From Gallionella sp. (GTDB lineage: Bacteria > Pseudomonadota > Gammaproteobacteria > Burkholderiales > Gallionellaceae), in NCBI GenBank assembly GCA_030645535.1, contig JAUSNM010000012.1, positions 1-40,867 on the forward strand: a stretch of 40,867 bases of DNA, read 5' to 3'. The position numbers and the translations under genes were made by a program. Of the stretch, positions 18,872-35,702 are shown piece by piece. How positions within the stretch are numbered: the stretch's first letter is position 1; every line of letters starts with the position of its first letter. Below the pieces are notes generated by a model, which saw nothing but the letters and a program-made list of their open reading frames with translations, was not told where the DNA came from and did not search any database.

Positions 18872-18959
18872 GCCAGGGCACGCAGAGCCCTGGCAACACC
18901 ACGACCTCGAAAATCGCAACAAACGCCCGAAGCATCCAGAAACCCGACGCATCCAGAAA
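18872..18959. other. Hairpin and short tandem repeat in a 264-nt gap
   Basis: GCCAGGGC and GCCCTGGC (18872-18894) form an 8-bp GC-rich stem with a 7-nt loop and no T-tract on either strand. Just beyond, GCATCCAGAAA is repeated at 18932-18942 and 18949-18959, a 17-nt period. No intact gene lies in 18746-19009. One minus frame here (GRGVARALRALAGD) vaguely resembles an SDR N-terminus, too weak to call. Confidence 0.4.
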
Positions 18960-19009
18960 AGAGTGGAGGAATTTCTGTGACGAAGGACCGTGGCGCAAGT
19001 CATCGTTTT

Positions 19010-19675
19010 CTATAATCGGGCCAATAAACCTTCATTCACAAAAAATTGCGAAGGCGCAAAATCGACAAAATATTTTAGTGTCCCGGATCGTTCGTTGACT
19101 GCTTGAATCAGCAGATTCTCAGCCACCCTGATATCCCCATCAGGGTCATTGGCGTATTTATCAGAATTGTCCAAATAAATATACCCGCCTTTTTTTATTT
19201 TTTTTATGACTTGACGCATACAATCTGCACGATTCCAACCGTCAACCAACGCAAAGTCCAGCGAACAATCATCAACCTTCGAAAGATCCGAATAGTCACT
19301 GTCAGACCTTAGCTCATATCTGACATTGCTTATCTTGCCCTTGTCCAGCTCTTGAGAAATCATGCGATACCAATCTTCGTTGTTCTCGATGCTGTACAGG
19401 AACCCACACCTTTTCGCTACCCACGCAGTAGAACTGCCTGACCCGAACTCGACGACTTTCCAGTCTGAGCGCATCAACTTTTCGATTTCACTGATAGCCC
19501 GGTAAGAAATCCAAGGTACTTTAGGCCTACGTTTAAAAATTACTCGCAGAAAACCTGAGACGATTACTTGCGGGAGATAACAAAGTCCCGCGAAATCGAC
19601 GAGATTGCCTTTTTCGTCATGTAACCGACTTTTTCTCAAGTCGCTGGCCCTTAAAATCTTTTTAACAATTCCCAT
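19010..19675 (-). CDS. SAM-dependent methyltransferase-like protein
   Basis: The 221-residue protein has a class I methyltransferase core: VVEFGSGSSTAWVAKRCG (motif I), LYSIENNEDWYRMI (acidic motif II) and LDFALVDGWNRADC, then KGGYIYLDNSD. This kind of protein is often found in polysaccharide clusters, but its acceptor is not known. I chose ATG 19675 because GGAG lies 6 nt upstream. An ATG 12 nt earlier lacks a site. It overlaps the stop of the preceding glycosyltransferase by 14 nt, indicating coupling. The codons are more A/T-rich than those of the flanking machinery genes, consistent with a separately acquired cassette. Confidence 0.75.
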   Translation of the reverse strand: MGIVKKILRASDLRKSRLHDEKGNLVDFAGLCYLPQVIVSGFLRVIFKRRPKVPWISYRAISEIEKLMRSDWKVVEFGSGSSTAWVAKRCGFLYSIENNEDWYRMISQELDKGKISNVRYELRSDSDYSDLSKVDDCSLDFALVDGWNRADCMRQVIKKIKKGGYIYLDNSDKYANDPDGDIRVAENLLIQAVNERSGTLKYFVDFAPSQFFVNEGLLARL

Positions 19676-20906
19676 TCTTAACTCCATTGCTATCTAAACC
19701 ACCAAATATATCCAGCAAATCTTCTGCCATCCGTTTCGTAGAAAAATACTCAACAAATTGGGCCCTCGCTGATCGCGCCATTTCCTTTTGAGTCGAAAGC
19801 TTGCTCACCTTTTCCGCAATCATTCGACCAAGCGCATTGACGCTATTCTCTTCAAGAACATCCACCCAACCGGCGCGGGCTGCAATATCCGAAGCGCCAT
19901 TGAAATTTGAAACTATGGTGGGAATCCCCATCCCGACCGCTTCAATCAATGTCAAAGGCAAACCTTCAAAACGGCTCGGCATGATGAAAATATCCAAATT
20001 GGACAGGTATTCGGCGTAATCTTTGGTCCATCCCGTGATATGCCACAAACCTGTGTCCGCAACACCAGCCAACTTGCGTTCAATTCTCTCTTTATCCGGC
20101 CCATCACCAATTAGCAATAATCGCGTTTGTACGCCGGAAGATGTCGCCCATAACCAACCATCGATTAGCAGATCAATATTTTTCTGGTGCACAAACTGTC
20201 CTGCAAAGCCAATTATTGGCAGATGCCCTCGTTTTTCATCGCCGATGAAAGTCGACCACCTCCCATCTGCATCCTGGATCACCTGACTGCAATCAGGAAT
20301 CGCAGAGGAAAAAGGGATCCCGCTAAGTACAACGGAGGTAGAGATGTTGAGCCGATAATAATTTAAAAACTCTTTTTTACCTGCCTCAGAAGAAAAGATT
20401 ATCGAATACGAGTGTTTTCTGTACCAATAACGAAGGAAGCACCCGCGCAATTTTCCAAAAGGGCGTTTATCCTTATCGGCTGTCATCGGCATATGAATCA
20501 CTCCTGCAACAGGAGCCACATCCGCCTTAAGAGCGCCCAGAACAAAATCCAGGCCGTCTTCATCATATTGCTGATTAACTAGAATGGCATCCGGTATAAT
20601 TTCACGGCAAGATTCAGCGACAAGATTCTGCTGCCCGATGTCGGCTATGGCTTGCAAAAAACGTAAAGGTCGATCCCGCAGGTTTATAAATTGTTTTCGA
20701 TGTACAACCGCACCGGCACCTTGTAGTTCCGACGCCCAATAATCCATATAATCAGACGAGGACAAGAGTGCATGCACTTTGCATCCAAGCTTAGTCAAGC
20801 CCTCTGTCATGAAAACCAGATATCGCTCACCACCGCCTCGTGGACTTGAATTGGAGCTTATCAACAAGACAGATCGACAGCCCTCGTTCGCACTATGCTC
20901 CGCCAT
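19662..20906 (-). CDS. Glycosyltransferase family 4
   Basis: The 414-residue GT-B protein has the N-terminal loop SSPRGGGERYLVFMTEGL. The linker has LPIIGFAGQFVHQKNIDLLI and the donor domain has IFIMPSRFEGLPLTLIEAVG with the paired glutamates of the E-x7-E motif. Donor and acceptor are unknown. ATG 20906 is preferred (GGGAAAGTG directly upstream) over an in-frame TTG at 20927. It begins 22 nt after the SDR epimerase gene and its end overlaps the methyltransferase gene, so the three form one transcription unit. Confidence 0.9.
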   Translation of the reverse strand: MAEHSANEGCRSVLLISSNSSPRGGGERYLVFMTEGLTKLGCKVHALLSSSDYMDYWASELQGAGAVVHRKQFINLRDRPLRFLQAIADIGQQNLVAESCREIIPDAILVNQQYDEDGLDFVLGALKADVAPVAGVIHMPMTADKDKRPFGKLRGCFLRYWYRKHSYSIIFSSEAGKKEFLNYYRLNISTSVVLSGIPFSSAIPDCSQVIQDADGRWSTFIGDEKRGHLPIIGFAGQFVHQKNIDLLIDGWLWATSSGVQTRLLLIGDGPDKERIERKLAGVADTGLWHITGWTKDYAEYLSNLDIFIMPSRFEGLPLTLIEAVGMGIPTIVSNFNGASDIAARAGWVDVLEENSVNALGRMIAEKVSKLSTQKEMARSARAQFVEYFSTKRMAEDLLDIFGGLDSNGVKNGNC

Positions 20907-20927
20907 CACTTTCCCGTCTCCGTGCAA

Positions 20928-21875
20928 TCAGTTATTTTTCATTCCGAAGATCACTCTGCCGATACCTTCATCCAGAGAGACACAAGGACGCCAGCCCGTC
21001 TCTCTCTGCAACAAGGTCGAATCAAGTATATTTACCGGCACATCGAAACCCCGAGCTGATTTATGAATTACTTCCGGAATGGTTCCCAACTGATGCCGCA
21101 GGCTGTCAAGTATATCCAGGACGGAATGGCCTTCGCCGCTCCCGATATTGAACGTCCTGCTAGTCCCCCTATACCTTAAAATACTCAGTATGGCCGATAT
21201 CATATCATCCACAAAAATGTAATCCCTCAGTACCTCCCCACTCCCCCACACTTCTAATGACTCCCCACGCAACGCACGGCTCGCCAAAGTCCCGATAACG
21301 CCTTGCCCCTTATCCAATCTTTGCCCTTCCCCGTAAATATTTGAAGGCCTTATGGTGAAGTTTTCGATTCCATGCATCAACGCATACATGGAAAAATATT
21401 TTTCAATTGCAAGCTTCGTAATCCCATAAGAACAAATCGGGTCAGTAGGATGGCTTTCCGAAATTTTGTTATCCTGCGGAATGCCATACACAGTGCCGCC
21501 GGAGGAAACGTAAACGATCCTGCGAACATTGGTTTTATCGAAACAAGATGCCCATTGAGCTGTTGCAGCTACATTGCTGCATATGTCATAGAAAGGATCG
21601 GTCATCGACGATCCTGGCGACGTAGTATGGACGAGATGAATGACAACATCCGTGTTTTCAATTGCGCCCAGCACATCCTCGGGGCAGGTAATATCACCTA
21701 TTACAATCTCCAACTGGGAGCGGATATCCTCCATCAGGGGCGGCACAGAGTCTTGCCTGCTAAACACCCTTACTTTGTAGCCATCCAAAAGCAACGCGCG
21801 GCAAAGATGACTCCCGATGAACCCCAATCCTCCGAGTACGGTGACATGCTTGAAATGAATTTCTTCCACGTTCAA
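20928..21875 (-). CDS. NAD-dependent epimerase/dehydratase (extended SDR)
   Basis: The 315-residue protein starts with VTVLGGLGFIGSHLCRAL (nucleotide-binding loop). It has the catalytic set YVSSGGTVYGIP and YGITKLAIEKY (YxxxK), then TIRPSNIYGEGQ and RDYIFVDDMI typical of nucleotide-sugar epimerases. It probably changes a UDP- or dTDP-sugar, but substrate cannot be assigned. It differs clearly from the galE in this window. The start is probably TTG 21875, since AGAGG lies 7 nt upstream and the protein has no ATG before the dinucleotide-binding loop. A GTG two codons later is possible. Confidence 0.85.
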   Translation of the reverse strand: MNVEEIHFKHVTVLGGLGFIGSHLCRALLLDGYKVRVFSRQDSVPPLMEDIRSQLEIVIGDITCPEDVLGAIENTDVVIHLVHTTSPGSSMTDPFYDICSNVAATAQWASCFDKTNVRRIVYVSSGGTVYGIPQDNKISESHPTDPICSYGITKLAIEKYFSMYALMHGIENFTIRPSNIYGEGQRLDKGQGVIGTLASRALRGESLEVWGSGEVLRDYIFVDDMISAILSILRYRGTSRTFNIGSGEGHSVLDILDSLRHQLGTIPEVIHKSARGFDVPVNILDSTLLQRETGWRPCVSLDEGIGRVIFGMKNN

Positions 21876-21892
21876 GGCAATACCTCTTTCAA

Positions 21893-22666
21893 TTAGCGAT
21901 CAACATTAATTCGTTGTGCCTCTGACTGTTTTCTCGCAATCACCAGTAGCGTATGCGTCTTTTTCCAAGGTCTGAAGAGCCAATCAATCATCACCAGCAC
22001 AGGGAAAAACGCAATCATTACCAGGTCATTCATCCTTAGAATGTTTACCTGTATCCAGCCGACGACAGCCGTACCAAGAGTACCGTAGCGCCTGCGATCT
22101 ATGGGCTCAAACCCTGCGCTTTCGAGCAGGCGTTCCAGTTGTTCAAATGTGTAGCCATGACGTACATGCCAGCCGTTCTCAAACCGAGTCACGTGCGATG
22201 CTTTCTTATCGAACTCGAAATCCCTGTTTGGCACGCTTACAAACAGAAGGCCATCCTTGGAGAGCAAATCATGAGCTTGTTTCAATGAACCAATATCATC
22301 CAGTACATGCTCAAGCATATCAATCATGAGGATTTGATCAAAACTATGCCGAAATACAGTTTCCTGACTGAAAGAACTCAATCTGCTTACTCGGAATTCG
22401 AGTCGTTCAGGTGAAATGGAAAGCGCATCCCGCATCTCTTCACATTTCTCTTTTTCCCATTCGTGAATCGTTATACCCACACAACTGTTTCCGCGCTGCG
22501 CAGCTTGCGTTGTAAAAAATCCATTCCCACATCCAATATCAAGGGTCCTAATCTTGTTTTCATTGTCATCACTCAGCATCAAATTGACCAGTTTCGCTTT
22601 ATCGCGACTTACCCAATTGAGGCCAGGCCACAGCATTTTTTTCAGTGTCAAACGTAAAGATTTCAT
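21893..22666 (-). CDS. Class I SAM-dependent methyltransferase
   Basis: The 257-residue protein has motif I RTLDIGCGNGFFTTQAA and post-I CVGITIHEWEKEKCEEM. QILMIDMLEHVLDDIGSLK and DGLLFVSVPNRDFEF complete the Methyltransf_11/23 core. A hydrophobic stretch near 205-230 (NDLVMIAFFPVLVMIDWLF) may associate with the membrane. It probably methylates a sugar or lipid-linked intermediate of the polymer. It lies 17 nt ahead of the epimerase gene. A 142-nt gap with a TATAAT precedes it, so a transcript may start here. Confidence 0.85.
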   Translation of the reverse strand: MKSLRLTLKKMLWPGLNWVSRDKAKLVNLMLSDDNENKIRTLDIGCGNGFFTTQAAQRGNSCVGITIHEWEKEKCEEMRDALSISPERLEFRVSRLSSFSQETVFRHSFDQILMIDMLEHVLDDIGSLKQAHDLLSKDGLLFVSVPNRDFEFDKKASHVTRFENGWHVRHGYTFEQLERLLESAGFEPIDRRRYGTLGTAVVGWIQVNILRMNDLVMIAFFPVLVMIDWLFRPWKKTHTLLVIARKQSEAQRINVDR

Positions 22667-22687
22667 TTTATTGTCAAGTAATTAAAA

Positions 22688-22693
22688 ATTATA
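22688..22693 (-). promoter_or_regulatory. Candidate -10 element before the methyltransferase gene
   Basis: A perfect TATAAT on the minus strand lies 22 nt before ATG 22666 within the A/T-rich gap 22667-22808. Upstream TTGCTT or TTGCCG hexamers fall at 19 and 15 nt, not the ideal 17. It is a possible internal promoter of the locus. Confidence 0.35.
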
Positions 22694-22808
22694 GTAAGCG
22701 CATATTATCGGCAAGCAATATCCTTACCAAACAATCTCTGAAAAACATGTCAGCGGTATGAATTTCTACCATTTTGCAGACGTTCGTTAATCATCAGCCA
22801 GAATTTCA

Positions 22809-23915
22809 TTATTTTTCCAAAATATCGCGGTAAACGCATTCCAGTTCCGAGAGCAGAACATCGCTTCGATATTTTTCGACAATCAGTTTTTTAGCATTCG
22901 ATGACATTGCCATTCTAAGAGACTCATTGCCGGCAAGTTTTGTGATCCCAGCAGCGACCTGATCTATGTCAGTGTCGCATACTATGCCGGCCATGCTGTC
23001 CTGGACCTCATGAAGATGACAAGCATAGGTAATCAAAACCGGAAGACCTGCTGCAAGCGCTTCTTTCACTGCAACCGAATCGCCTTCCTGATAGGACGGC
23101 AGCACAAAGAAATCGCAGTTTTTGAGCAAAACGTGCTTTTTTTCGTCGTGCACTTCCCCTGTAAAAGTGACAGCATGTCGAACGCCGTATTGATCAACCA
23201 GCCTTTCTATTTGGCCCTGATATCCACCCTCGTCCGGTCCTGCTATCAAGAGGTGCACATCAACTCCCTGATCCAGAGTTTTCTTCAACGCCGGGATCAG
23301 GATATCCAATCCCTTCTTTTCATGGATCCTGCCCAGGAACAATACTACTGTGCTAGCTCGAATATCAGGATAAATGGTTTGCAAATCAATTGCGCTTGGT
23401 GCTTTCGAAAATACGGCCATATCGATACCGTTCGGAATCACAAACGTCTTTTGTTCACCAATGAAAGAATGAGCTTCTGCCGCTTCCTCATCGTTCAAGA
23501 AATGCAATCCCGCACAAAGCTCAATATTTCTACGTTCTAGCAGCGCTGCATACAGCCCTTTTTTTAGCCTGCTCCTCTTCATGCTCCATTTATCGAGCAT
23601 GCCATGAGGGGTAATCACATATGGCCGTCCTTGAGCATACGCAAATCTACCGGCCATCGTTGTCGGCAATGTCCACAAACCGTGGATATGTACAATATCA
23701 GCCTTACTGATCTTGCCCATCAGCTCCCGCATACCATCGAAGCCCGGCCAGTACAAGAATCTCCCCCTGTGCTCCACAAGACCTGGCTCCCGTGCCGAAG
23801 GAAATATATCCACCTCATGCCCGAGCCTTTCCAGGCCGGCTTGCATTGTCCGCGCAACCCGCACCGGTCCGCCATAAGCCGAATGCAACGTAGGAAGTAC
23901 ATGCAGAATTTTCAA
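22809..23915 (-). CDS. Glycosyltransferase family 4
   Basis: The 368-residue GT-B protein begins MKILHVLPTLHSAYGGPVRV, with the glycine loop typical of GT4. It has YVITPHGMLDKWSMKRSRLK, a hallmark of one GT4 subgroup, then VVLFLGRIHEKKGLDILIPA and FFVLPSYQEGDSVAVKEALA. Donor and acceptor are unknown. The start appears to be TTG 23915, with AGG 8 nt upstream. The preceding glycosyltransferase gene ends only 8 nt before it, so the two are cotranscribed. Confidence 0.9.
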   Translation of the reverse strand: MKILHVLPTLHSAYGGPVRVARTMQAGLERLGHEVDIFPSAREPGLVEHRGRFLYWPGFDGMRELMGKISKADIVHIHGLWTLPTTMAGRFAYAQGRPYVITPHGMLDKWSMKRSRLKKGLYAALLERRNIELCAGLHFLNDEEAAEAHSFIGEQKTFVIPNGIDMAVFSKAPSAIDLQTIYPDIRASTVVLFLGRIHEKKGLDILIPALKKTLDQGVDVHLLIAGPDEGGYQGQIERLVDQYGVRHAVTFTGEVHDEKKHVLLKNCDFFVLPSYQEGDSVAVKEALAAGLPVLITYACHLHEVQDSMAGIVCDTDIDQVAAGITKLAGNESLRMAMSSNAKKLIVEKYRSDVLLSELECVYRDILEK

Positions 23916-23923
23916 TCTATTAC

Positions 23924-25114
23924 CTAGCCTTTGCCGTCAGATTTCGCATTAAACGCTAAAGCAGCGTGAACTGCATAGACGGCCCCCATACCGAATCTTT
24001 CCGGGCCAAAGGAGCGCACAATATTTCTGCTCATTTGGCCCATCTGGGAACGCGTAATTGCATCCAGGCGATGTAATTTCAGCATCGCATTCGCTATATC
24101 CGGTGCATCGTAAGGGTCAAAAAAGAAGCCATTTTCATTTTCCCTGACCAGTTCCGCACTCGCGCCCACCGTCCGGCTTGATAAAATCGGCAGGCCCGCC
24201 GCACAAGCCTCATTGACCACCAGACCCCATTGCTCCACAAAAGCCGGGTGGATCAGCGCCGAGGCTCTGGCAAAGAACATCGGCAATTGTTGATAGGATA
24301 CAAAACCAGGCAAGTGGACAAAGCTATCCAGACACCGGTCTTTCAACAGTGAGCGAATTTCATTTTCCTGATTACCGCTACCACATATCACCAAATCCAA
24401 TGCTCCATCTGGAACCCTGTTTCGATATATCTCGTAAGCCGCAATAAGGCCGGGAAGGTTTTTTCTCGGCATCATCCGCGTTACGCAAAGAAAGTATGGT
24501 TTGCGTGTAATGAACGATGCAAAAGCCGCGTCTCCCTGACCGCGGAAGTAGTCGGTCGATTGTATGAAATAGTTGTTGTCCACCGCGTCATAGCCGAGAA
24601 AAATATTTTCCGCAGGCATGCCCAGGCCAACGAGGTAATCCTTATGAGCCTCCCCGCCAACCAGCGCGGAAGAGAACTTCCTCACAAAAAATCTTGCCTT
24701 TATAGCTTCTCTAATTACTGACCTTACAGCGTCGTCCTTTTTGCTCTCACTCATCAGTATGGCGGCACTAGAATTTTTTCGGCACCAGTTGAGAATTGCT
24801 CCTGCTGCAGGGAACCCCCAACCAGGAACAAATACGACCTGTGGCCGAAGCTGGTCGAGATGGCGGGCAATTCCAGAGCTGACTTCCTTCCATTCCTTGC
24901 TACTGAGACTTGATGATGCCCCGTCTCCAGGAAGTAAAGTTTCGATGGAAAAAGTAATTGCCTGGCTCAGATCTCCCCAGGGGTGCTCAAACGTATTATT
25001 GGAGACCTGTATCGCGATCAGCTCCCATCCTTCGTCGGCAAAAGCTGCCTGGGCAGCGCGCAGTCTGGCTGCATGATAACTACCTATATTGGTAAATAGT
25101 ATGGCTATCTTCAT
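23924..25114 (-). CDS. Glycosyltransferase family 4
   Basis: The 396-residue protein begins MKIAILFTNIGSYHAARLRA. The acceptor domain includes VVFVPGWGFPAAGAILNWC, and the interdomain region has KPYFLCVTRMMPRKNLPGLI. The donor-binding domain contains ALIHPAFVEQWGLVVNEACA with the glutamate pair of retaining GT4 enzymes. It is the middle one of three close glycosyltransferase genes, 43 nt after the one at 25158-26420. Substrates are unknown. Confidence 0.88.
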   Translation of the reverse strand: MKIAILFTNIGSYHAARLRAAQAAFADEGWELIAIQVSNNTFEHPWGDLSQAITFSIETLLPGDGASSSLSSKEWKEVSSGIARHLDQLRPQVVFVPGWGFPAAGAILNWCRKNSSAAILMSESKKDDAVRSVIREAIKARFFVRKFSSALVGGEAHKDYLVGLGMPAENIFLGYDAVDNNYFIQSTDYFRGQGDAAFASFITRKPYFLCVTRMMPRKNLPGLIAAYEIYRNRVPDGALDLVICGSGNQENEIRSLLKDRCLDSFVHLPGFVSYQQLPMFFARASALIHPAFVEQWGLVVNEACAAGLPILSSRTVGASAELVRENENGFFFDPYDAPDIANAMLKLHRLDAITRSQMGQMSRNIVRSFGPERFGMGAVYAVHAALAFNAKSDGKG

Positions 25115-25157
25115 CGATTATTGAACGACTTCGTCAGATTTTCACAAGAAAACATAA

Positions 25158-26420
25158 CTATGCGTGGCTCAGCAACTCTCCTGATCCGAATATATGCGAT
25201 AGTCTATGGGCATAGGATTTCAAGGTATATTCTTCAGCGCGCTTACGCGCATTTTGTGACATGCTAGCATATAAATCCGGGTTCGCTGCAATAAAGGCCA
25301 GTTTTTCAGCTACCGCAAACCCATCCCTTATTGGGACAATGAAACCCTCCTGTCCGTTTCGGATTACGCTACCGGTATTTTCCGTACAGATTACAGGCAA
25401 ACCATAAGCCAACGCTTCGTAAACCACAGTCGCGGATCCTTCGCAAATCGAGGGCAACACAAACACGTCAGCCCACATAAATTGCTGCAACATTTCTGAC
25501 CGCGGAATTGGCCCCACTAAATCAATGTATTCTCTGAGTTTCGACTCGGCCTGCGGCAGCACATTGATTGAACCAATCATCCTGAAATCAGCCTTACCTT
25601 TCAATTCCCTTGCAGCACTCAAGATATAGGGCGCGCCTTTGCGCAACCCGACTTCACCGACAGTAAGAACCTTCAACGGACCGCCTCGTAGCTTCCGGTC
25701 GATCCTTTCGATGTCCACATCGACGCCGTAAGGAATGACGCGGCATCTTTCAGCAGGCCCCCCCGATGCCGCAATACCATCTTTCACGAATTCGGATCCG
25801 CACAGAATCATGTCTGAATTATCCCATTCTTCCCGTTCACGTTTGGCAATTTCCTTGACGTGAACATCTTCAGGGAGAATATTCTGCCAATCCGGGAACG
25901 CCTCATGTTCCTCCTTCATTAAGCGTCGCTCGACCGCACATGGCGCAATGGTTTGCTCCATGACCGCAAATAAGCCATTGCGGCGCGCAGCCTGCAAAAG
26001 TTCCAAACCAGCAGTGTTAAATGTGTATATCGCCGTCGCATTGCCGAAACCCTGTTGAAGCACAAGCTCACAAAACCTTTTTCCTGCCCAGAGAAACTCG
26101 GCCGTCGATTCAGAAGGGTTATTAGCCTTCGCTAGCCGCCTGGCATACTCCCATCCGAATCGGGTGAACGAGGTAATAAGATTTCGCGGCACACCTTGCG
26201 GCACACGATTCAAAAGCCGCTTCACGCCCATTGGCCTGATGAATGCAGGCAATAAGTTCAGCAGCCGCACCCCCCCTACGGCACAAATATCCGTGTACAA
26301 GCGCTCCAACTGCCCTGAATCATGCAACATTCTAGGCACGGCATAATGCATACGCGCTCCCAGTTGAGCAACACAAACCCGGTGCACAAACAAGCTGTTA
26401 GACAATTTGCTCACAGTCAC
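25158..26420 (-). CDS. Glycosyltransferase family 4
   Basis: The 420-residue protein has a GT4 C-terminal domain: PLKVLTVGEVGLRKGAPYIL, VFVLPSICEGSATVVYEALA with the E-x7-E pair, and GLPVICTENTGSVI. Its N-terminal domain (AQLGARMHYAVPRMLHDSGQ, then AIYTFNTAGLELLQAAR) belongs to a less common GT4 branch. The start is GTG 26420, overlapping the TGA of the split glycosyltransferase in GTGA, so its translation is coupled to that gene's frame. If the G12 tract upstream is out of frame, ribosomes may not reach this start normally. A G7 run occurs at 26270-26276 near the 5' end. Confidence 0.87.
   Translation of the reverse strand: MTVSKLSNSLFVHRVCVAQLGARMHYAVPRMLHDSGQLERLYTDICAVGGVRLLNLLPAFIRPMGVKRLLNRVPQGVPRNLITSFTRFGWEYARRLAKANNPSESTAEFLWAGKRFCELVLQQGFGNATAIYTFNTAGLELLQAARRNGLFAVMEQTIAPCAVERRLMKEEHEAFPDWQNILPEDVHVKEIAKREREEWDNSDMILCGSEFVKDGIAASGGPAERCRVIPYGVDVDIERIDRKLRGGPLKVLTVGEVGLRKGAPYILSAARELKGKADFRMIGSINVLPQAESKLREYIDLVGPIPRSEMLQQFMWADVFVLPSICEGSATVVYEALAYGLPVICTENTGSVIRNGQEGFIVPIRDGFAVAEKLAFIAANPDLYASMSQNARKRAEEYTLKSYAHRLSHIFGSGELLSHA
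26270..26276 (-). repeat. G7 run near the 5' end of a glycosyltransferase gene
   Basis: Seven Gs on the coding strand encode part of AVGGVRLLN in the GT4 gene 25158-26420, about 145 nt after its start. The frame is intact as read. It is a third homopolymer in 1.5 kb with the G12 and G8 tracts. Confidence 0.7.
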
Positions 26421-27487
26421 TTTCTCAATGTTGAAATTCCATCCTGCACGGTTTCTTGTGCCCCCGATGGAATGATGGTTCTTGACTCAGGGTCAGGAGT
26501 AATGACAGACCGGATGTACTCCAACTGCAAGTTTGTGAACCTGCGGTATTTCCTGGATGTTGCCAGCGCGCCATTGTGCAAATGTTCCCAGGAATTTATG
26601 TTTTCAACAGCCATTTCCAGGCACTTCAGCAAACTGACTTTATCCCGGAATTCATACGAATAGCCGTTCCAGCCAGACTTTACGAAGCAGGAACTTCCTG
26701 TTCTTGTGGGCACGATGGCCGGGGTACCCAGATCAAAGCCCTCAATAACCGAGCCAGCCAGTGGCTCCTCCCACATAGCAGGGTTGACAACGAAATGCGC
26801 CTGTCTGTGCAGGTCAACGAACTTTTGATCGTCCAGTTTTCCATAAACCATATCGATATCAAACCCATTCTCTTGCAGCCTTGCCACTTGCCTCTCTATT
26901 CTTTCTCCCGCAGCATCGCATCGCACCACCAACTTGAGCATATTCTTTCTGTGGGTCAATTCGGACCAGGCATCCAGCAAGAAATGGAGCCCACGGTCGA
27001 AACTTGCTCGAGCTGCAAACATGAAAATGATTTTCCCTTTGCCAACCGACAGCCGCCGCGTATCTTTTTCCGATTCATAAATCAGATCTCTGTTGGCGGG
27101 GATGACCAATGAAGTACGGACCGAGATCCGGCCCCCAATCGCGCGCTCGAACAATTGATGCTGATGCGGCGACTGGAATAAAACCAGCACATTGTCGTCT
27201 TGCAAAAAGCGTTTTGCAGACTCGAGCCGAGCCATCCCTTCTTTTTCGGACAAGAGCGCATGCTTAGACTGAAACAATTCGGCAAGTGCCCAGAGCGCAT
27301 ATTTTTGCAGGCTGGCCGGCAGCCAACTGGTCATTCGAAAGAATAGTCGGAAACGCCCTGAATACCACAGTCGATTAGTCGGCATGGAATGCGAAAAAGG
27401 TTCGATGCCATGCGTACAGTTTGCACATCCCCCCCCCCCCGTCAGGCCCTGAACAAGCTGATCCGGAAGGATTGAGAAAAAATCCAA
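26417..27487 (-). CDS. Glycosyltransferase, C-terminal part (downstream of the G12 frameshift)
   Basis: This frame holds the last 336 residues of a GT4-type enzyme: CANCTHG right after the G-tract, GKGKIIFMFAARASFDRGLH as the interdomain segment, and NPAMWEEPLAGSVIEGFDLG with the donor-domain glutamates. Its first 20 codons (from ATG 27487) are the upstream gene read in the wrong frame, so this is not an independent gene start. With G11 in the tract it would join in frame with 27441-28043 to give a protein of about 530-540 residues. Its end overlaps the next GT4 start (GTGA). Confidence 0.8.
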   Translation of the reverse strand: MDFFSILPDQLVQGLTGGGGCANCTHGIEPFSHSMPTNRLWYSGRFRLFFRMTSWLPASLQKYALWALAELFQSKHALLSEKEGMARLESAKRFLQDDNVLVLFQSPHQHQLFERAIGGRISVRTSLVIPANRDLIYESEKDTRRLSVGKGKIIFMFAARASFDRGLHFLLDAWSELTHRKNMLKLVVRCDAAGERIERQVARLQENGFDIDMVYGKLDDQKFVDLHRQAHFVVNPAMWEEPLAGSVIEGFDLGTPAIVPTRTGSSCFVKSGWNGYSYEFRDKVSLLKCLEMAVENINSWEHLHNGALATSRKYRRFTNLQLEYIRSVITPDPESRTIIPSGAQETVQDGISTLRK

Positions 27488-28043
27488 GGTGGCATACCGA
27501 CGAATGTTCCGTCGGGATAAATATGACCGGTTTACCGAAACGGAGACAGGCCTGCCAGATGATCATCCCAGTCGATATCCAGTTGATCAAAATAATGGAG
27601 CCAACCCTCTCCTTTTCGAAAATGTTCAGCAACATGTCTTCAATAACCCTGGCTTCCTTTGGGTAGGACAATCCATGAGCATTCGCCTCACGCTCCATTT
27701 GGAAAACCCTCTTTTTATCATCCAGGTGGAGCACATATATATTTCCGTGTGTGTTTTCAATCTTGTTCTGCCCCCCCCAAACAAAATAAATTTCCACCAG
27801 GTTTAGCCCCATACTCCTGAGAAGAAGCAAATAGTTTCTTTGCCATATTTCCAATCCTGAAACTCGATTGTCGTCACCTTGCCCTGGAGGTTTTCCGTAA
27901 AGGGTCACGCAAACTTTGCTACCGACACCATTGATCACCAGCTTTCTCCGTTTGAGTTGCCCCACCGCACTGCTGAATTTATCCCTAATGATCTTACCGC
28001 CACCCACCCCGACTTCCATAGCAGGTGCTACGCTCCCCCACAT
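27375..28043 (-). CDS. Glycosyltransferase, N-terminal part (upstream of the G12 frameshift)
   Basis: This frame holds the N-terminal acceptor domain: SKVCVTLYGKPPGQGDDNRV, IILINWISTGMIIWQACLRF, then PVIFIPTEHSSVCHLGFFL and SGSACSGPDGG up to the G12 tract. The cysteine motif C-x-GP-x(n)-C-x2-C, common in GT4 enzymes of this type, is completed only by the other frame (CANC) beyond the tract. As read, the frame continues for 18 codons of nonsense (MCKLYAWHRTFFAFHAD) and stops at 27375. ATG 28043 sits against a GAGGA. ATG 28019 with GGGGGAG about 12 nt upstream is an alternative start. It follows the methyltransferase gene by 3 nt. Confidence 0.8.
   Translation of the reverse strand: MWGSVAPAMEVGVGGGKIIRDKFSSAVGQLKRRKLVINGVGSKVCVTLYGKPPGQGDDNRVSGLEIWQRNYLLLLRSMGLNLVEIYFVWGGQNKIENTHGNIYVLHLDDKKRVFQMEREANAHGLSYPKEARVIEDMLLNIFEKERVGSIILINWISTGMIIWQACLRFGKPVIFIPTEHSSVCHLGFFLNPSGSACSGPDGGGGMCKLYAWHRTFFAFHAD
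27429..27440 (-). repeat. G12 homopolymer that splits a glycosyltransferase gene
   Basis: Twelve Gs on the coding strand follow GAC of the upstream frame. GAC plus G12 leads to ATG TGC AAA in frame with the upstream half and an early stop. A count of 8, 11 or 14 Gs would give GGA TGT GCA AAC TGT and restore the full enzyme. This is the classical form of a slipped-strand contingency tract. A homopolymer sequencing error is the alternative and cannot be excluded here. Confidence 0.85.
27771..27778 (-). repeat. G8 run in the glycosyltransferase N-terminal domain
   Basis: Eight Gs encode part of VWGGQNK. Protein similarity appears continuous on both sides, so the frame is probably correct at G8. 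It lies 330 nt upstream of the G12 tract in the same gene. Confidence 0.7.
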
Positions 28044-28046
28044 TCC

Positions 28047-28802
28047 TCAAACTGAGGAAGATTGCTGGTCATCTTTACTTATCCGTCCAAACGCGAATAG
28101 TGATGGCTTCATAAACCGGGGAGCAAATCGCTGATGTAAAACACCCAGGAAATAGGCGATCTTTGAAAATGAGAGGTACGTTGGCTCGGCATCATGTCCA
28201 TACACAACACAAGCAAATCCGCTGTCCTTCATGGTATTCCTCAATTTCCGGACACTGTTGCATTTGTAAACAGTTGGAAAGACATCCTCATCACTCCTTC
28301 CCTCCTGAACGACAGATGTCACTTTCGAGTGGTATCTGTTTGGAATAAGGGTCGCGGCTATCGCAATATAGCTCCATCGATTTGGAGTTCGTAAGCACAA
28401 GTAACCACCATCTTTCAGAACACGGCGAATTTCCCTGAAAAGGCGATCCGTATCTTCAATGTGCTCCAATACGTTGTCGCAGACAATTAGATCCACGGAA
28501 TTGCTCTGAACAGGCCATGAATCACCTTCTATGAGAAGAAACTGATCCAGGAAGGGATTGTCTCGGGCACCGTTATCAACATCGATTCCGATCACTTTGG
28601 CGACTTTTCCTTTGAGAATTCTCAGACTCCTGCGAACGGGCACTGGATCTTCACTGTATGCGCCTCGTCCGCAGCCAACATCAAGGACGACAAAAGAGGG
28701 ATCAAGAAGCGAATTGACCCTGTTAAAGAACGCCACCGTTCCATCAACATCTGTGAAGCCGCCGAATCTCGCTTCTGGATAAAATATTTCTTTGTAGTTC
28801 AC
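28047..28802 (-). CDS. Class I SAM-dependent methyltransferase
   Basis: The protein has the Methyltransf_11 core: FVVLDVGCGRGAYSEDPV (motif I), KVIGIDVDNGARDNPF, VDLIVCDNVLEHIEDTDRLF and KDGGYLCLRTPNRWSYI. The N-terminus NYKEIFYPEARFGGFTDVDG is that of a subgroup common in polysaccharide loci. I prefer GTG 28802 because AGAGGA lies 7 nt upstream. The ATG at 28826 has no ribosome site and adds 8 residues. The acceptor is unknown. It is 3 nt from the split glycosyltransferase, so they are cotranscribed. Confidence 0.85.
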   Translation of the reverse strand: MNYKEIFYPEARFGGFTDVDGTVAFFNRVNSLLDPSFVVLDVGCGRGAYSEDPVPVRRSLRILKGKVAKVIGIDVDNGARDNPFLDQFLLIEGDSWPVQSNSVDLIVCDNVLEHIEDTDRLFREIRRVLKDGGYLCLRTPNRWSYIAIAATLIPNRYHSKVTSVVQEGRSDEDVFPTVYKCNSVRKLRNTMKDSGFACVVYGHDAEPTYLSFSKIAYFLGVLHQRFAPRFMKPSLFAFGRISKDDQQSSSV

Positions 28803-28941
28803 TGTAGAATCCTCTGCATGGTGCATGTAAGTTAATGTACACCTGGTTCATGACGGAATCGGCACTGCCTGATTAATATACTTAACGATCCTGGCCGGAC
28901 ACTACGGAATCCGATACCTTGGTAATTGCTGGGATTGCCCA

Positions 28942-30135
28942 TTAGCGCATTCCTGCCCCGGATTCGTGAACTGGAGATTTCAAGCTCCATTGCTCGACAG
29001 CAAAAAAACACAACAAACCAGCCAACAGTGACACCATTACACCCAGCGCCGTCGGAGCCAGTGTCTCCATGGAAATTCCCAAAGCGACAATTGCTGATTT
29101 ATATAATAGTAAAACGGGGACATGTATCGCATAAAGCGAATAGCTAAATACCCCCACTTTCGCCAGGAACCTCCCCGGAATACCGTCTAAGAACTCCTTT
29201 CCCCTGCGGGTCGTGCTCCAGCTTACTAATCCACCAAACGCCACTGCAGTACAAATGGTTGTCACCGAGTCGTAAAAAAAGGTATCGACCATTTGTTTAT
29301 ATGCAAATTTTCCCAACAACACAAGGACAATCGCAGTCAGTGCCGACAACAGGGAAATTCGATAAAACCCAGCTGGGAGGCTGCTTCTGCCCGCATTAAC
29401 TTCTGCTAAATAGAACCCCAACGTCCAGGTAAACCAATATGACAAAAATACAGGACCAATTCCGTAAGGGGCAGGGAGTCGTTGCCTGACACCCAGCAGA
29501 TCATCAATAAATATATAAGCCAAACTGACAAGCAGAGTAAAAATGAGGGTGCGTTTGGCGTCAAATTTGCGCGACAGGTAATAGAGAATCGGGTAAACGG
29601 CATAAAGATGCATCTCAAGAGACAGTGTCCATAAAACGCCATTGCTGCCGAATGTCGGCGCAAGCAAACCCTGCAAAGACAACAGGTTCGCCAGAAAAGT
29701 GAACAAAGTGCGATCCTGGTTGTTGTCTAACTGAACAAGTCCGTTCGAAATAACCAACGAATCCACCAGAACCGTAACGCACAATGCGGCAAAATAAACC
29801 GGATATATTCGAACAAAGCGGCGCAATGCGAACGCCTTCACAACTAGCGGTGTATCCGTATTTTCCGCCAAATTATGTGCGCCACGATAATGAATGCAAT
29901 ATCCGCTCAAAACGAAGAAAAGATAGACGCCCAGATACCCGAAGAGTGTGGGTGCACTGAGGTAACCCAGCCACGCATTTGGTTCGAATCCAAGACCATA
30001 TTTAGCCCACGTCGCTGAAGTCCCGACCCACAACATGCCTTTGGCATGCAGTAGGACAACAGCCAAAGCAGCCGCACCTCGCAAAGAGTCAATCGCGTTG
30101 GCGCGCCCCATAATGCGGTTCATTCGAACAATCAT
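28942..30135 (-). CDS. Acyltransferase family 3 membrane protein (OafA-like)
   Basis: The 397-residue protein has about ten TM helices. Near the N-terminus it carries AIDSLRGAAALAVVLLHAKG with the catalytic-type His. Further on are LSGYCIHYRG, the RRFVRIYPVYFAAL motif and GVLWTLSLEMHLYAVYPIL. Such enzymes O-acylate, usually O-acetylate, sugars of extracellular polysaccharides at the inner membrane. There is no fused SGNH domain. The ATG at 30135 has GGGGGAACTT upstream, a strong site. The 139 nt between it and the methyltransferase start hold no gene I can see. Confidence 0.9.
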   Translation of the reverse strand: MIVRMNRIMGRANAIDSLRGAAALAVVLLHAKGMLWVGTSATWAKYGLGFEPNAWLGYLSAPTLFGYLGVYLFFVLSGYCIHYRGAHNLAENTDTPLVVKAFALRRFVRIYPVYFAALCVTVLVDSLVISNGLVQLDNNQDRTLFTFLANLLSLQGLLAPTFGSNGVLWTLSLEMHLYAVYPILYYLSRKFDAKRTLIFTLLVSLAYIFIDDLLGVRQRLPAPYGIGPVFLSYWFTWTLGFYLAEVNAGRSSLPAGFYRISLLSALTAIVLVLLGKFAYKQMVDTFFYDSVTTICTAVAFGGLVSWSTTRRGKEFLDGIPGRFLAKVGVFSYSLYAIHVPVLLLYKSAIVALGISMETLAPTALGVMVSLLAGLLCFFAVEQWSLKSPVHESGAGMR

Positions 30136-30186
30136 AAGTTCCCCCTAGATCGACAGCGAGCCATTAAGTTGAAGCAACTTCTTTAC

Positions 30187-31500
30187 TCATGCCCTTTGTC
30201 TGGTTGCAGTTGAAGTTAAGCGTGCCGTTCCCGGTCGAGAAGAAAGTTTAATGATCATCGTTATGATGAGAAAATAAATAAGCATGGGAATGAATGCCGC
30301 CGCCACACCCTGGGACGCCAGCCAATGGCTCCCTGCGAGAATGGTGATGAACTGGGCGCGTTTCAATATAGAGGATACGTCGACGAACCGACGGCCCATT
30401 GCGAATCCGAGTGCAAACCATAAAAACGGAGCCAAAAAACCAAGCTCCATGAAAGTTTCAGCAACGCCACCCGCGGCGGCGCCCGAAGAAAGTTGCCATC
30501 CCAAGACCTGTGGCATGAGGCTCGGTGTCCAGGGAAACAACCCTTGCCCCAAATTGGGCTTGTCCGGCCATAAATATCTCGGAATAAAGTGGGTCAACAA
30601 CGACAAGTATCCTGTCCCATATTGGTAATTTCCCAGTGCAGTGGCCGTAGCCACCATACCCATGTGATAAAGCGCTTCGTTGTCCCCATCTTGCTTGCTC
30701 TTCTCAACGGTTACCGACTCGATCGAGAGCGCCTGGACGGACTCCTCATTCCAGGCATGCATACCCCCTTCGCTATAATTTCGAACTAAGGGAAAAACCA
30801 GCATCGCAGCGCCTATCACCAGGATTGACGTTACCAGTACAAGTTTCTTCGGCTTAGTCGCCTGCATCAGACCAAATCCATAAACCACCATTATAATGAT
30901 AGGAAAAGTAGGCCCCCTTCGTGCGGTAAGAAAAAAAACATAGGTTAGCCCAAAGCACAGAGCAAACAGAATCAATTTATGCAAATATGATTGATACCTC
31001 TTATCTTTGACGATTGCGATGACGCACGCCAGAATTCCGGGGTACCCGATGTGATAAAGCATGTACACATATGCTGAAGTCCCCTCATAGTCATATTTCT
31101 CGTCTCTGAAGTCGACAAATTGCATGGAAACAATCGCAACCAATGCGGCAAAAATCCCAAAGCCCCACATTCTCGCGTAATTCAAGGAAGGTTCCTTGTC
31201 GATTATTCGTACTCTGTTGCCCCCTTTTTTCAAGGCCAATTTCCAGCCATGCAGGAATGCCAGAAAACAGACTAGCGCCAGCGCCTGGCCCAGCTCGAAC
31301 ATCCAGGGCTTAAGCAAGTAATCCAGATTAGTTGCCACAACATAGGTTTGAAAAACATAAAAATACCCGAACATCAGGCTGAAAAGAAACGGAGCCCCAT
31401 AAATATTCTTGTCGGTTACATAGCTGTGCACAACGGTGCGGACAATCACCAACAGGGTAGCCATCCACAACATCCAGAATACCGTAAGATCATCAGCCAT
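30187..31500 (-). CDS. Wzy-like oligosaccharide repeat-unit polymerase
   Basis: The 437-residue protein has about eleven TM helices and a large periplasmic loop with GNYQYGTGYLSLLTHFIPRY and LWPDKPNLGQGLF. Both motifs recur in Wzy/oligosaccharide repeat-unit polymerases, as does TARRGPTFPIIIMVV. These polymerise undecaprenyl-linked repeat units in the periplasm. The WEC-type core shared with O-antigen ligases (seen in 11232-12752) is not present, so the two are different families. ATG 31500 has GGAGTTTCGA upstream and overlaps the end of a 32-codon ORF. Confidence 0.85.
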   Translation of the reverse strand: MADDLTVFWMLWMATLLVIVRTVVHSYVTDKNIYGAPFLFSLMFGYFYVFQTYVVATNLDYLLKPWMFELGQALALVCFLAFLHGWKLALKKGGNRVRIIDKEPSLNYARMWGFGIFAALVAIVSMQFVDFRDEKYDYEGTSAYVYMLYHIGYPGILACVIAIVKDKRYQSYLHKLILFALCFGLTYVFFLTARRGPTFPIIIMVVYGFGLMQATKPKKLVLVTSILVIGAAMLVFPLVRNYSEGGMHAWNEESVQALSIESVTVEKSKQDGDNEALYHMGMVATATALGNYQYGTGYLSLLTHFIPRYLWPDKPNLGQGLFPWTPSLMPQVLGWQLSSGAAAGGVAETFMELGFLAPFLWFALGFAMGRRFVDVSSILKRAQFITILAGSHWLASQGVAAAFIPMLIYFLIITMIIKLSSRPGTARLTSTATRQRA

Positions 31501-31591
31501 TCGAAACTCCGTAATAGCGCAAGCGACGACGCAATCGATTCATGCCAGCGCGCAGGGCGCGCTGCACAAGCTGCCTTGAAAAACCATACAT
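31493..31591 (-). CDS. Possible small Arg-rich leader ORF coupled to the polymerase gene
   Basis: A 32-codon ORF starts at ATG 31591 with AAGG about 9 nt upstream. It begins MYGFSRQLVQRALRAGMNRL, continues with an Arg-rich stretch, and ends 8 nt inside the polymerase gene in a different frame. I do not recognise it. It could be a real small peptide, a translational coupler, or the remains of a lost gene. Support is only the start, ribosome site and overlap. Confidence 0.35.
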   Translation of the reverse strand: MYGFSRQLVQRALRAGMNRLRRRLRYYGVSNG

Positions 31592-31610
31592 ATCGAACTA
31601 CCTTTTAGTA

Positions 31611-32711
31611 TTAAAGTATCAACTCTCGCCATCGTATGGACAGCACTTCAACCCCATAGCGGCTTTTTGCCCATCTGGAAAGCCTTTGTTGATCAATTTC
31701 GCCATTGCGCAATTTGTAAGCCATGGAATGCACCGCGGCCACAAAATCCGCATTGTTGATCGGTGTCACCATAACATCCGGGTTATCTTCCAGGAGCGAA
31801 GCGATACCACCTGCGTTCATGGCAACGAAAGGTACGCCATGCTGCACCGCTTCCAGGAGAACCAGAGGGAGCCCTTCGACCCTGCTGGGCAGTAGCACCA
31901 AGTCAGTGTTATCCAGCAGGCTCAAATCATTGTGATCATAAGCGCCATGCAGCGCTACCTGATTCTCCAAGCCCTGCTCCCTGACAAACCCACGCAAAGA
32001 TTCAAGCATCGGGTCGTCAGGATAATCCGCTCCGTATACGTCGAGACGGGCAGGAGCCAAAGGAAACTGATTTGCAATTTTGGACCATTCACGTACCAGC
32101 CAGTCGGGTTGCTTGTGTTTTACCAGACGTCCAAAATAGGCGACTCGTAATTCCCGTTTCTCAGGAGGACTAGCGAACTTTCGTTCGGCAACTGGATACT
32201 CGGTTGAGAAGAAAGGAATAACGCATATCCGGCAAGGGCCGACCGCATCAACTACCCGCTCAGCAATAGTTTCAGTAGGCGCAATGATCATATCCATTGA
32301 ACTTGCAACCCGCGCCATCATGCTTCCAGACTTGGGCGCTTCGATAAGTTCATGGTATATGCATATCCCATCCTTATGAAGAAACCGCCGCATCCACAAA
32401 TGCATGCGCCCATGCCCATGACAATACAGAACATCAAAATTTCTTTTCAGACGAAACGGCCAGGTCATTAGTGCTTCCGCCTTGGCCAGTCTCGACTGAT
32501 TTCGCATAGCAGTAAAAGTAGGAAGCACCACCCGCACCCCTGCGTCCCGCAGGTCATCCAAGGCACTGGCTGGCCAGTTCGAAGCCGAGGCCGCAACGGT
32601 GACCTCGGCACCTGCCGCCCTCAACACCCTGCTCAGCATGGTCACATGAGTTTGCACGCCTCCTACAGCCAACCCACCGCTGATCAGCACACGTAGTGCC
32701 TTAGCCGCCAT
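31611..32711 (-). CDS. Glycosyltransferase family 4
   Basis: The 366-residue protein starts MAAKALRVLISGGLAVGGVQ, the glycine loop with VQTH typical of GT4. It has LRVAYFGRLVKHKQPDWLVR and LVLLPSRVEGLPLVLLEAVQ with paired glutamates. The open frame extends further to 32837 but that part is the ABC-transporter end read in another frame. ATG 32711 overlaps the transporter stop by 11 nt, which implies translational coupling. Sugar specificity is unknown. Confidence 0.9.
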   Translation of the reverse strand: MAAKALRVLISGGLAVGGVQTHVTMLSRVLRAAGAEVTVAASASNWPASALDDLRDAGVRVVLPTFTAMRNQSRLAKAEALMTWPFRLKRNFDVLYCHGHGRMHLWMRRFLHKDGICIYHELIEAPKSGSMMARVASSMDMIIAPTETIAERVVDAVGPCRICVIPFFSTEYPVAERKFASPPEKRELRVAYFGRLVKHKQPDWLVREWSKIANQFPLAPARLDVYGADYPDDPMLESLRGFVREQGLENQVALHGAYDHNDLSLLDNTDLVLLPSRVEGLPLVLLEAVQHGVPFVAMNAGGIASLLEDNPDVMVTPINNADFVAAVHSMAYKLRNGEIDQQRLSRWAKSRYGVEVLSIRWRELIL

Positions 32712-34575
32712 TACGCACACCCATTGCCGCCCGCTCCAATAAACTGCGCGGACTTGACGGTTCGGCTGACGCATCAATACATCCCGTTTGACTGCTACCA
32801 GACAAACCCGATCCCTGTTGGAGTTTAAAGAAATCACCTCCCCTGTCCATCAATTCCTGATAGCTTCCCTGTTCCAGTATCTTGCCATGTTTCATGAAAA
32901 CAATCATATCTGCCTGCCGAATGGTGGAAAGCCTGTGCGCAATTACCAATACCGTTCTGTCTTTGCTGGCTAGTTCTATAGCTGATTGCACCGACTTTTC
33001 GGATGCAGTATCCAAAGCGCTGGTCGCTTCATCAAATATCAAAATTTCAGAGTGATGAATGATTGCCCTCGCTATGGCAATTCGTTGCCGCTGTCCTCCG
33101 GAAAGCATCGTCCCACGATCACCGACAATCGTAGCAAACCCGTTTGGGAGATTCTGGATAAACTCATAGGCATACGCATTCTTTGCCGCCGCAATGATTT
33201 CAGATTCTGATATGGAATCCATTCCATAGGCTATATTGTCGCGAACCGACGCATTAAATAGAAAGGTATCCTGGCTGACCAGGCCGATCGCCCGACGCCA
33301 GGTACCACGGCTGATATTACGCAAATCAATGCCATCGACTGTGATTTTGCCCTCTTGCGGTTCATCGAAGCCCATCAACAAATCTGCCAAAGTGGATTTT
33401 CCACTTCCCGAAGGCCCCACCAATGCAACCACGCTCCCTTTTTTTATTCGCAAAGTCAGATTGCAAATTGCCGGCACGTCATTGCCAGGAAAAGCATATG
33501 TTACGTTCTCGAAATCAATCTGGAACTGCATGCCCTGAAATAGTGTTTCCCCATCTGCAGTTTCGACCAGATCGGATTTCGACAGCATATCGGAAATCGC
33601 GGTCAAGCTCCCACCCAACTGTGATACTTGGGCACGAACCCCGGCCAGGTGAGTTAGCCTGGGCCACAGGCGCATCAATGCGATGAGATAGGCCGCTACA
33701 AGTGGCAACACATCCGCCTGATTCGAATAGATGAAGGCACCGGCAGCCAGGATACTCAAGACAAGAATGGTTCCAACCGTTTCCGTGCTCGGGCCGACTG
33801 CAGACTGGCGCATCCACGCTGTCAATTCAGCATCGTAACGTTCCTTCAGAGCAATATCGGAGCGGCGAATCTCGGCGGCCTGACCATTTCGTGCCTTGAT
33901 AACGCGCATGCCGCTGATAATTTCGGTAATCACTGATGAGAAGTTGCCGATACTACTGGCTGCCTTGTTGCCCGACACAGCCACAGACCTGAACACTTTG
34001 CGCAGCGACAAACCCAACACTCCGATGGTGACAACAACAAAAGCAGTCAACCCCGGCGACAACATGATAAGGAAAATCATAAGAAACGTGATGATGAACA
34101 GGCTGTTCACCATGCTTATCATAAGGGCAACCAGCATTTCACTCCGCTGAACCTGCTCGTTGACACAACTAAGCAAGTCACCCATCCTCGATTTACTATA
34201 AAAACAGAGCTTTTGGGTTAAAAAAAACTCTACGCACCGTCGCCGAAGCGAGATGCCCACATCCAGCATCAACCTGTTTATCGAAATATTGGAAAAGTAC
34301 AAGCTCAGGTTTTTCATCACCGTCAGAACCAAAATGGCAACAACGATAGCCGTGAACTTGTGTTGCTCGGGGACGCTTTCAAAAAAGCTCATGATGCTGT
34401 TTGTCATCTGCGAGTATCCCGATCCCGAGGCATTCGAAGTAGTGCTGAGGAACAGAATGAGCGGCATCATCAGCGCCGCCGTAATTGCCTCAAGGACAGC
34501 CACGATCAATCCCAGGACAAGCCCCAACGCGGCCAGGCTTTTATGCTCTTTGACAAAAACGAGCAACAATTTCAT
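32701..34575 (-). CDS. ABC exporter with fused membrane and ATPase domains (possible lipid-linked oligosaccharide flippase)
   Basis: The 624-residue half-transporter has six TM helices in about residues 1-310 and an ATPase domain at about 345-590. The ATPase motifs are GPSGSGKST (Walker A), MLSGGQRQRIAIARA (signature), ILIFDEATSALD (Walker B) and VIAHRLST (H-loop). Its layout is that of MsbA and PglK. PglK of Campylobacter flips a lipid-linked oligosaccharide, and no Wzx/MATE-like flippase is visible in this window. I infer it may flip the repeat unit, but MsbA-like lipid or peptide export is not excluded. Its ATG overlaps the FkbM gene stop (ATGA) and its end overlaps a glycosyltransferase start. 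Confidence 0.88.
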   Translation of the reverse strand: MKLLLVFVKEHKSLAALGLVLGLIVAVLEAITAALMMPLILFLSTTSNASGSGYSQMTNSIMSFFESVPEQHKFTAIVVAILVLTVMKNLSLYFSNISINRLMLDVGISLRRRCVEFFLTQKLCFYSKSRMGDLLSCVNEQVQRSEMLVALMISMVNSLFIITFLMIFLIMLSPGLTAFVVVTIGVLGLSLRKVFRSVAVSGNKAASSIGNFSSVITEIISGMRVIKARNGQAAEIRRSDIALKERYDAELTAWMRQSAVGPSTETVGTILVLSILAAGAFIYSNQADVLPLVAAYLIALMRLWPRLTHLAGVRAQVSQLGGSLTAISDMLSKSDLVETADGETLFQGMQFQIDFENVTYAFPGNDVPAICNLTLRIKKGSVVALVGPSGSGKSTLADLLMGFDEPQEGKITVDGIDLRNISRGTWRRAIGLVSQDTFLFNASVRDNIAYGMDSISESEIIAAAKNAYAYEFIQNLPNGFATIVGDRGTMLSGGQRQRIAIARAIIHHSEILIFDEATSALDTASEKSVQSAIELASKDRTVLVIAHRLSTIRQADMIVFMKHGKILEQGSYQELMDRGGDFFKLQQGSGLSGSSQTGCIDASAEPSSPRSLLERAAMGVRNGG

Positions 34576-35666: not shown

Positions 35667-35702
35667 GTTTGAGCCATGCGCAGCCCTATTGGATGTAATC
35701 GC

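Follow-up and report, generated by a model that had tools for sequence, protein, structure and literature searches.

A G12 tract splits a glycosyltransferase gene of a Gallionella exopolysaccharide cluster, a candidate for phase variation

A G12 tract lies at the junction of two reading frames

The stretch of DNA analyzed here (the window) comprises 40,867 nucleotides of Gallionella sp. (assembly GCA_030645535.1, contig JAUSNM010000012.1, positions 1 to 40,867) and contains, on its minus strand, an exopolysaccharide gene cluster (6259..40846, recognized by family matches) in which one gene, encoding a glycosyltransferase resembling those of family 4 (GT4), is split between two reading frames. 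Read directly, the plus strand carries twelve consecutive Cs at 27429-27440, that is, a mononucleotide tract of twelve Gs (G12) on the coding (minus) strand. Two open reading frames (ORFs) overlap at this tract in different frames, one at 27375-28043 (222 aa, minus strand) and the other at 26417-27487 (356 aa, minus strand). The first holds the N piece of the enzyme (27375..27938, from a probable GTG start to the stop), which we delimited from its translation, its alignment to relatives, the context of the start and a profile match. The second is the C piece (26417..27487), identified by its translation, Pfam, relatives and a profile match; it comprises the remainder of the N domain followed by a GT4-like Glycos_transf_1 domain that scores above the curated cut-offs (PF00534, 38.5 bits against 26.4; PF13692, 35 bits against 27). 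A Pfam scan of the N piece returned no match. When the profile of the family described below was used as the query, genomic positions 27432-27920 matched model positions 4-165 and 26495-27451 matched model positions 159-474, such that the two matches meet at the tract. Alignment to the relatives gave the same picture, with the N piece tracking them through C-x-GP and the C piece doing so from C-x2-C onward. The direct reading, the ORFs and the two adjoining profile matches bear out the proposal, made in the initial annotation of this DNA, that a run of 12 Gs separates two frames of a single GT4 enzyme; the frame changes between parts of one gene exactly at the tract.

The same annotation had the gene begin at position 28043, which is probably too early. 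The likely start is the GTG at 27938 and not the ATG at 28043, because a GGAG sequence lies directly upstream of the GTG and because its position is near the starts of the relatives. Downstream of this start, a second tract of eight Gs (27771..27778, minus strand) lies in frame within the split gene. In the sequence as assembled, translation of the N piece continues out of frame past the G12 tract and ends 17 codons beyond it, at the stop at 27375-27377. The out-of-frame product would lack the C-terminal nucleotide-sugar domain and should therefore be inactive. The gene had accordingly been described as off; the loss of frame at G12 does stand in the assembled sequence, but slippage of RNA polymerase or the ribosome on the tract could leak some product.

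Both halves of the gene are conserved among relatives that lack the tract

When the C piece was used as the query, the matches were the window's own protein and three relatives of 491-499 aa, whose identities were 64, 45 and 40%. A profile built on these three, in a search that scored the best 7,991 candidates by shared words, gave 12 matches, namely 11 relatives of 434-499 aa and the window's own C piece. All 11 relatives span both the N and the C pieces. Moreover, the motif C-x-GP-x5-C-x2-C is present in all 11, its spacer being five residues long in every case, and it is within this spacer that direct reading and the spacing of the motif place the G12 tract. The initial annotation had proposed that only 8, 11 or 14 Gs would complete the motif, written there with a spacer x(n); the C-x-GP and C-x2-C elements are indeed shared by every relative, but the fixed five-residue spacer suits one of these lengths and not three. 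Consecutive glycines never exceed two anywhere in the 11 relatives, and because they lack the tract we conclude from these alignments that it is derived, having arisen in this lineage.

The two sides of the tract are similarly well preserved. Relative to its closest relative, the split gene is identical at 106 of 166 residues (63.9%) on the N side and at 204 of 321 (63.6%) on the C side. If residues shared by at least 90% of the relatives are counted as family-conserved, the N piece retains 29 of 33 and the C piece 67 of 71. These values fall within the range seen when each relative is compared with the others (26-30 of 30-35 and 63-71 of 71-77, respectively; P0011, one of the relatives, has a short N end). 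Both glutamates of an E-x7-E sequence, which we take to be the motif of retaining GT4 enzymes, are present in the C piece, and neither varies among the 11 relatives (E391 and E399 in relative P0004). At the protein level, then, both flanks of the tract appear to be under constraint, with no decay on either side. In particular, the downstream half is unlikely to have been dead for long, because its conservation would be expected to lag behind that of the upstream half, and does not.

The family to which the split gene belongs is rare. Among 76 genomes of the genus it was found in 1, and among 399 sampled genomes of the order likewise in 1 (at most four candidates being scored per genome); on account of this rarity the split gene is an accessory gene. 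Against named genomes, the sole match of the C piece was weak and partial, in a metagenome-assembled genome of the Methylophilaceae (30% identity, query residues 259-347), and a plasmid collection gave no match. With the N piece alone as the query, only the window's own protein was found, probably as a result of the search excluding proteins more than 1.75 times the length of the query.

These observations bear on two explanations under which the tract would not be a switch. The first is that the gene has recently been lost, in one direction, through a slip of the tract, and is still undecayed. The out-of-frame consensus, the accessory character of the gene, which is missing from the other 75 genus genomes searched, and the replacement by glycine of a basic residue of the motif are all as such a loss would have it; the downstream half, however, is free of decay, and a tract of this length would be expected to slip both ways, given that switching in Campylobacter jejuni is mediated by tracts of eight or more (PMC6321876). 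We consider one-way loss distinctly unlikely.

The second explanation is programmed or tolerated slippage, in which RNA polymerase or the ribosome slips on the tract to give some full-length enzyme, or in which both pieces are made through termination and re-initiation. G12 is a slippery template, and the downstream half, as described, is conserved. Re-initiation is conceivable because an ATG in the downstream frame (27383..27385, minus strand), a possible re-initiation site judged from its sequence context, lies just before the N-piece stop and overlaps the end of the N piece. Not one of the 11 relatives carries the tract, however, so there is no conserved slippery site, and no good Shine-Dalgarno sequence was seen before the ATG. 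Slippage or re-initiation therefore strikes us as very improbable as the main explanation of the split.

The predicted structure of a relative resembles GT4 enzymes

A structure model of relative P0004 built from 11 sequences had a predicted local distance difference test score (pLDDT) of 86.6 and a predicted template modeling score (pTM) of 0.87; it supersedes an earlier model built from 3 sequences, which was poor (pLDDT 59.3). When the AlphaFold model of P0004 was searched with Foldseek, the top matches were of the GT4 type, with 6kih at an E value of 2e-14 and a template modeling (TM) score of 0.60 by query length. The nearest folds are those of sucrose-phosphate synthase (6kih) and MshA (3c4q), entries that we presume to be GT-B enzymes of family GT4. 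A full-length GT-B fold is thus predicted for P0004, the relative, and not for the split gene itself. On this model, the tract would encode residues equivalent to about 167-170 of 491, where a short helix bearing the CxxC pair begins, far before the C-terminal nucleotide-sugar domain. The enzyme is accordingly like the retaining GT-B enzymes of the GT4 type (PF00534/PF13692) in the Glycos_transf_1 domain of its C piece and in the resemblance of the P0004 model to GT4 structures, whereas its group forms a subfamily of its own, characterized by C-x-GP-x5-C-x2-C and without a sequence match to any PDB chain at E<=0.001.

The tract is exceptional within its own genome

The genome from which the window derives (2,682,241 bases in 116 contigs, 86.6% complete) contains 18 tracts of eight or more Gs, of which nine are G8, eight are G9 and one, the sole tract of ten or more, is the G12 tract in the split gene. 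This tract is longer than would be expected by chance: Markov models of order 1, 2 and 3, trained on 84.5 kb of the genome, predict 0.18, 0.016 and 0.022 G12 tracts in the genome, respectively. Such models understate long G runs, because tracts of at least 12 Gs are no rarity among genomes of the genus (29 of 76). Three of the 18 tracts fall within this 41 kb window, where 0.27 would be expected (Poisson P of three or more, 0.003; the count was made post hoc), and all three are on the coding strand of sugar-transferase genes, two in the split gene and one in a WecA-like gene. In our ORF map, the 16 G8-G9 tracts outside the split gene never fall where one long ORF breaks off and another takes over. 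Ten of these 16 genes were scanned with Pfam, and nine had a family (M16 peptidase, CoaE, EamA, PilY1, LapB-like TPR, the WecA-like transferase, S13 peptidase, MMPL and MCP), whereas the tenth had none.

The same data speak to the possibility that the length of the tract is simply wrong in the assembly, through an error of the polymerase chain reaction (PCR), of sequencing or of the consensus. The gene would then be in frame in most cells and the tract still prone to slip, the off state being an artefact. Long G runs are hard for any assembly. The genome here is a 116-contig, incomplete assembly that was probably derived from a metagenome; in other genomes of the set, poly-G lies at contig ends or beside Ns (5 of the 37 listed tracts of at least 12 Gs); and both halves of the gene look maintained. 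Set against this, the other 31 ORFs that we took as genes tile the window without a further evident split, judging from the ORF layout, and the 16 shorter tracts outside the gene never coincide with a break in a long ORF. Taken together, we regard mis-sizing of the tract as unlikely.

The split gene as a proposed phase-variable glycosyltransferase

We lean, by a modest measure, toward the view that the split gene is a phase-variable (contingency) glycosyltransferase of the exopolysaccharide cluster, varied by slipped-strand mispairing. According to this model, mispairing at the G tract during replication would add or remove Gs. In one length class of every three, both halves would be read as one GT-B enzyme; at the other lengths the frame would be lost at the tract and the C-terminal sugar-nucleotide-binding domain would not be made, such that cells of a single clone would differ in whether they add this sugar to the polymer. 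In support of this view, the change of frame falls exactly in the tract, the relatives run across both halves, conservation is two-sided and the setting is that of a surface polymer. Phase variation had been put forward in the initial annotation. What holds of that proposal is the position of the split at a tract of a hypermutable type, the lack of decay and the surface-polymer setting, and it gains support from an in-frame G12 in a GT4 gene of another species of the genus; variation in length and switching of phenotype belong to its predictions. Variation of the tract among living cells, activity of the in-frame enzyme and an effect on the polymer are points we infer.

Several findings weigh against phase variation. 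The locus was found as one consensus sequence only, and no length variation was seen. No second genome with the split gene was found among the 76 of the genus or among the 399 sampled from the order, where at most four candidates per genome were scored, so that no conserved switch can be demonstrated. Immediately before the CxxC pair, 8 of the relatives have K, 2 have R and 1 has A, where the split gene has glycine; an in-frame product might be weakened by this replacement. Long G tracts are common: those of at least nine Gs occur in 59 of 61 genomes of the genus, and the order's other families have them too (16 of 16 genomes). Finally, 26 of the 37 listed genus tracts of at least 12 Gs are neither in a long sense frame nor at a break of one: of at least 37 distinct tracts, 5 are at contig ends or beside Ns, 21 are in no long sense frame, 9 are within one and 2 are at a split. 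(The window's own tract is one of the 9, the downstream frame being open for 40 codons upstream too, but we regard it as a split.)

Poly-G tracts elsewhere in the genus

Overlapping G9 words are present in the genus at a median of 4.4 per Mb against 1.9 in other families (pooled, 5.3 against 3.5), values uncorrected for composition and assembly state. We rejected the notion of long G tracts as a hallmark of the genus, given that every genome examined from other families of the order carries tracts of nine or more as well.

Eight of the 11 genes with an in-frame or split tract of at least 12 Gs were scanned with Pfam, and two of these encode GT4 enzymes, one being the window's and the other a gene of the genome designated G013 (locus L153:6859-8058, contig C97). 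The latter is an intact gene of 401 codons with G12 in frame (PF13692, 68.3 bits; PF00534, 65.4 bits) and is unrelated to the split gene. It is located in a polysaccharide cluster with GT2, GT4, methyltransferase, epimerase and sulfotransferase domains (10 of 12 ORFs of at least 200 aa were scanned with Pfam, and the tract gene separately). No close relative of it turned up in the other 75 genomes; apart from itself, just its neighbor, at 30% identity, matched at 1e-30. The G013 gene is a second candidate for a contingency glycosyltransferase, its in-frame G12 being the state expected of such a gene when ON. Because PF13692 genes make up well below one in a hundred genes, two GT4 genes among the eight scanned is more than would be expected, with the caveat that such numbers are small and that the choice of tracts was not random. 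The number of PF13692 matches per genome was 9 in G000, 14 in G013, 10 in G071 and 5 in G055; in G071, 7 of the 10 are concentrated at two places, around 1.39 Mb and at 3.03-3.05 Mb. Gallionella ES-2 is described as carrying two large polysaccharide clusters (PMC3770913).

It is possible, though we think it doubtful, that the genus makes use of independently arisen poly-G contingency tracts in non-homologous exopolysaccharide glycosyltransferases, and perhaps at the 5' ends of genes for PAS sensors, so that clones of these probably iron-oxidizing organisms, free-living and without an animal host, would be mosaics with respect to their polymer.

Other tracts in the genus are of mixed character. 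Three genes encoding PAS domains, L074, L110 (G071) and L145 (G016), have poly-G tracts of 11, 14 and 13, respectively, at or near the start of a long frame, and might be switched at their start or early in the frame. Genes with G9-G11 tracts include FixG-like, HisA/F-like, cytochrome c, GGDEF, Wzy_C-like, DNA polymerase I, aminotransferase and other genes, and are mostly not surface genes; in a DNA polymerase I gene (L066, G010) the tract is a G11 in frame on the coding strand. Pairs of ORFs that appeared to be split at G9 in other genomes were considered as switches, but the two most promising proved to be ordinary neighbors (CcmB behind an ABC ATPase in L083, FtsX behind an ABC ATPase in L058). 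At L136 (G091), an apolipoprotein N-acyltransferase gene is apparently split at a G12 between its LNT_N and CN_hydrolase parts. Poly-G runs of 12-26 lie outside long frames at L140, L141, L111 (G077) and L121 (G016) and share a similar right flank (taac/tagc ... gtcaag), as if they were part of a repeated intergenic element; L111 lies beside a run of Ns. The idea that the organism is an ammonia oxidizer was rejected: a search for AMO (PF02461) gave no match in the window's own genome or in six near-complete genomes of the genus, where the control set likewise matched nowhere.

Relation to known phase-variable systems

Most known cases of slipped-strand switching of surface sugars come from host-associated bacteria, and one poly-G phase-variable gene for a surface glycan in Campylobacter is said to be Cj1295. 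According to one report (PMC6321876), poly-G is the main type of tract in Campylobacter, most tracts lie inside ORFs and many of the genes concerned modify surface structures; the PhasomeIt catalog given there employs a working cut-off of at least seven Gs. The split gene resembles these genes in that a poly-G tract above this cut-off lies on the coding strand of an ORF for a surface structure, with the frame set by the length of the tract. The two cases differ in that variation in length is documented in Campylobacter whereas the split gene is known from one sequence; in that C. jejuni has a median of 20 tracts per genome whereas the genome here has one tract of ten or more Gs and no phasome; and in that tract lengths peak at 9-10 Gs there, the G12 here being longer (PMC6321876). 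In addition, the organism studied here probably belongs on the betaproteobacterial side. Homopolymeric tracts in Bordetella offer a further likeness, their G/C tracts also being longer than Markov prediction, although in that study nine tracts were genotyped in 90 isolates, compared with the one assembly here (PMC1891110). The split gene is a good candidate for a member of an already known kind, the slipped-strand phase-variable gene as found in Campylobacter.

No case of such phase variation in environmental or iron-oxidizing bacteria turned up in our searches of the open-access literature, the subscription literature being outside the scope of the search. If phase variation does take place in this free-living, probably iron-oxidizing bacterium, selection by phage attack or by attachment to surfaces or minerals, and not host immunity, would be expected to lie behind it, and strain-level variation of environmental slime polymers would become testable through the tract lengths in reads. 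The case gains some interest from its host, which is probably free-living, and from the further GT4 gene with a G12 tract found in a sister species.

The next gene and the surrounding cluster

Another gene for a GT4-type glycosyltransferase (25158..26420, minus strand) follows the split gene and begins within its end: the stop TGA (26417-26419) and the start GTG (26418-26420) form a GTGA overlap, which we read in the sequence just as the initial annotation had reported. We can only conjecture that the off state lowers this second GT4 enzyme through a polar effect; re-initiation at the ATG at 27383-27385 could keep translation going toward the next gene.

The cluster contains genes for CpsB/CapC, a Wzc-like kinase, an EpsE-like export protein, Wzy_C, a WecA-like initiating transferase, several GT4 enzymes, GalE and a UDP-glucose dehydrogenase-like protein, together with methyl-, acyl-, carbamoyl- and sulfotransferase-like genes, several of the labels ending in "-like" reflecting NCBIfam matches below the curated cut-off. 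No flippase was identified by family in the window's cluster. On the strength of its gene content, the window is an exopolysaccharide cluster of the Wzy type. The initiating sugar-phosphate transferase, which is WecA/MraY-like (12941..14290, minus strand), has an in-frame G9 tract at 13136-13144, where a slip could affect the whole polymer. Arylsulfotransferase-like genes, weakly matching sulfotransferase-like genes and a NodU-like carbamoyltransferase gene (38527-40846, 17003-18778) suggest that the polymer is sulfated and carbamoylated.

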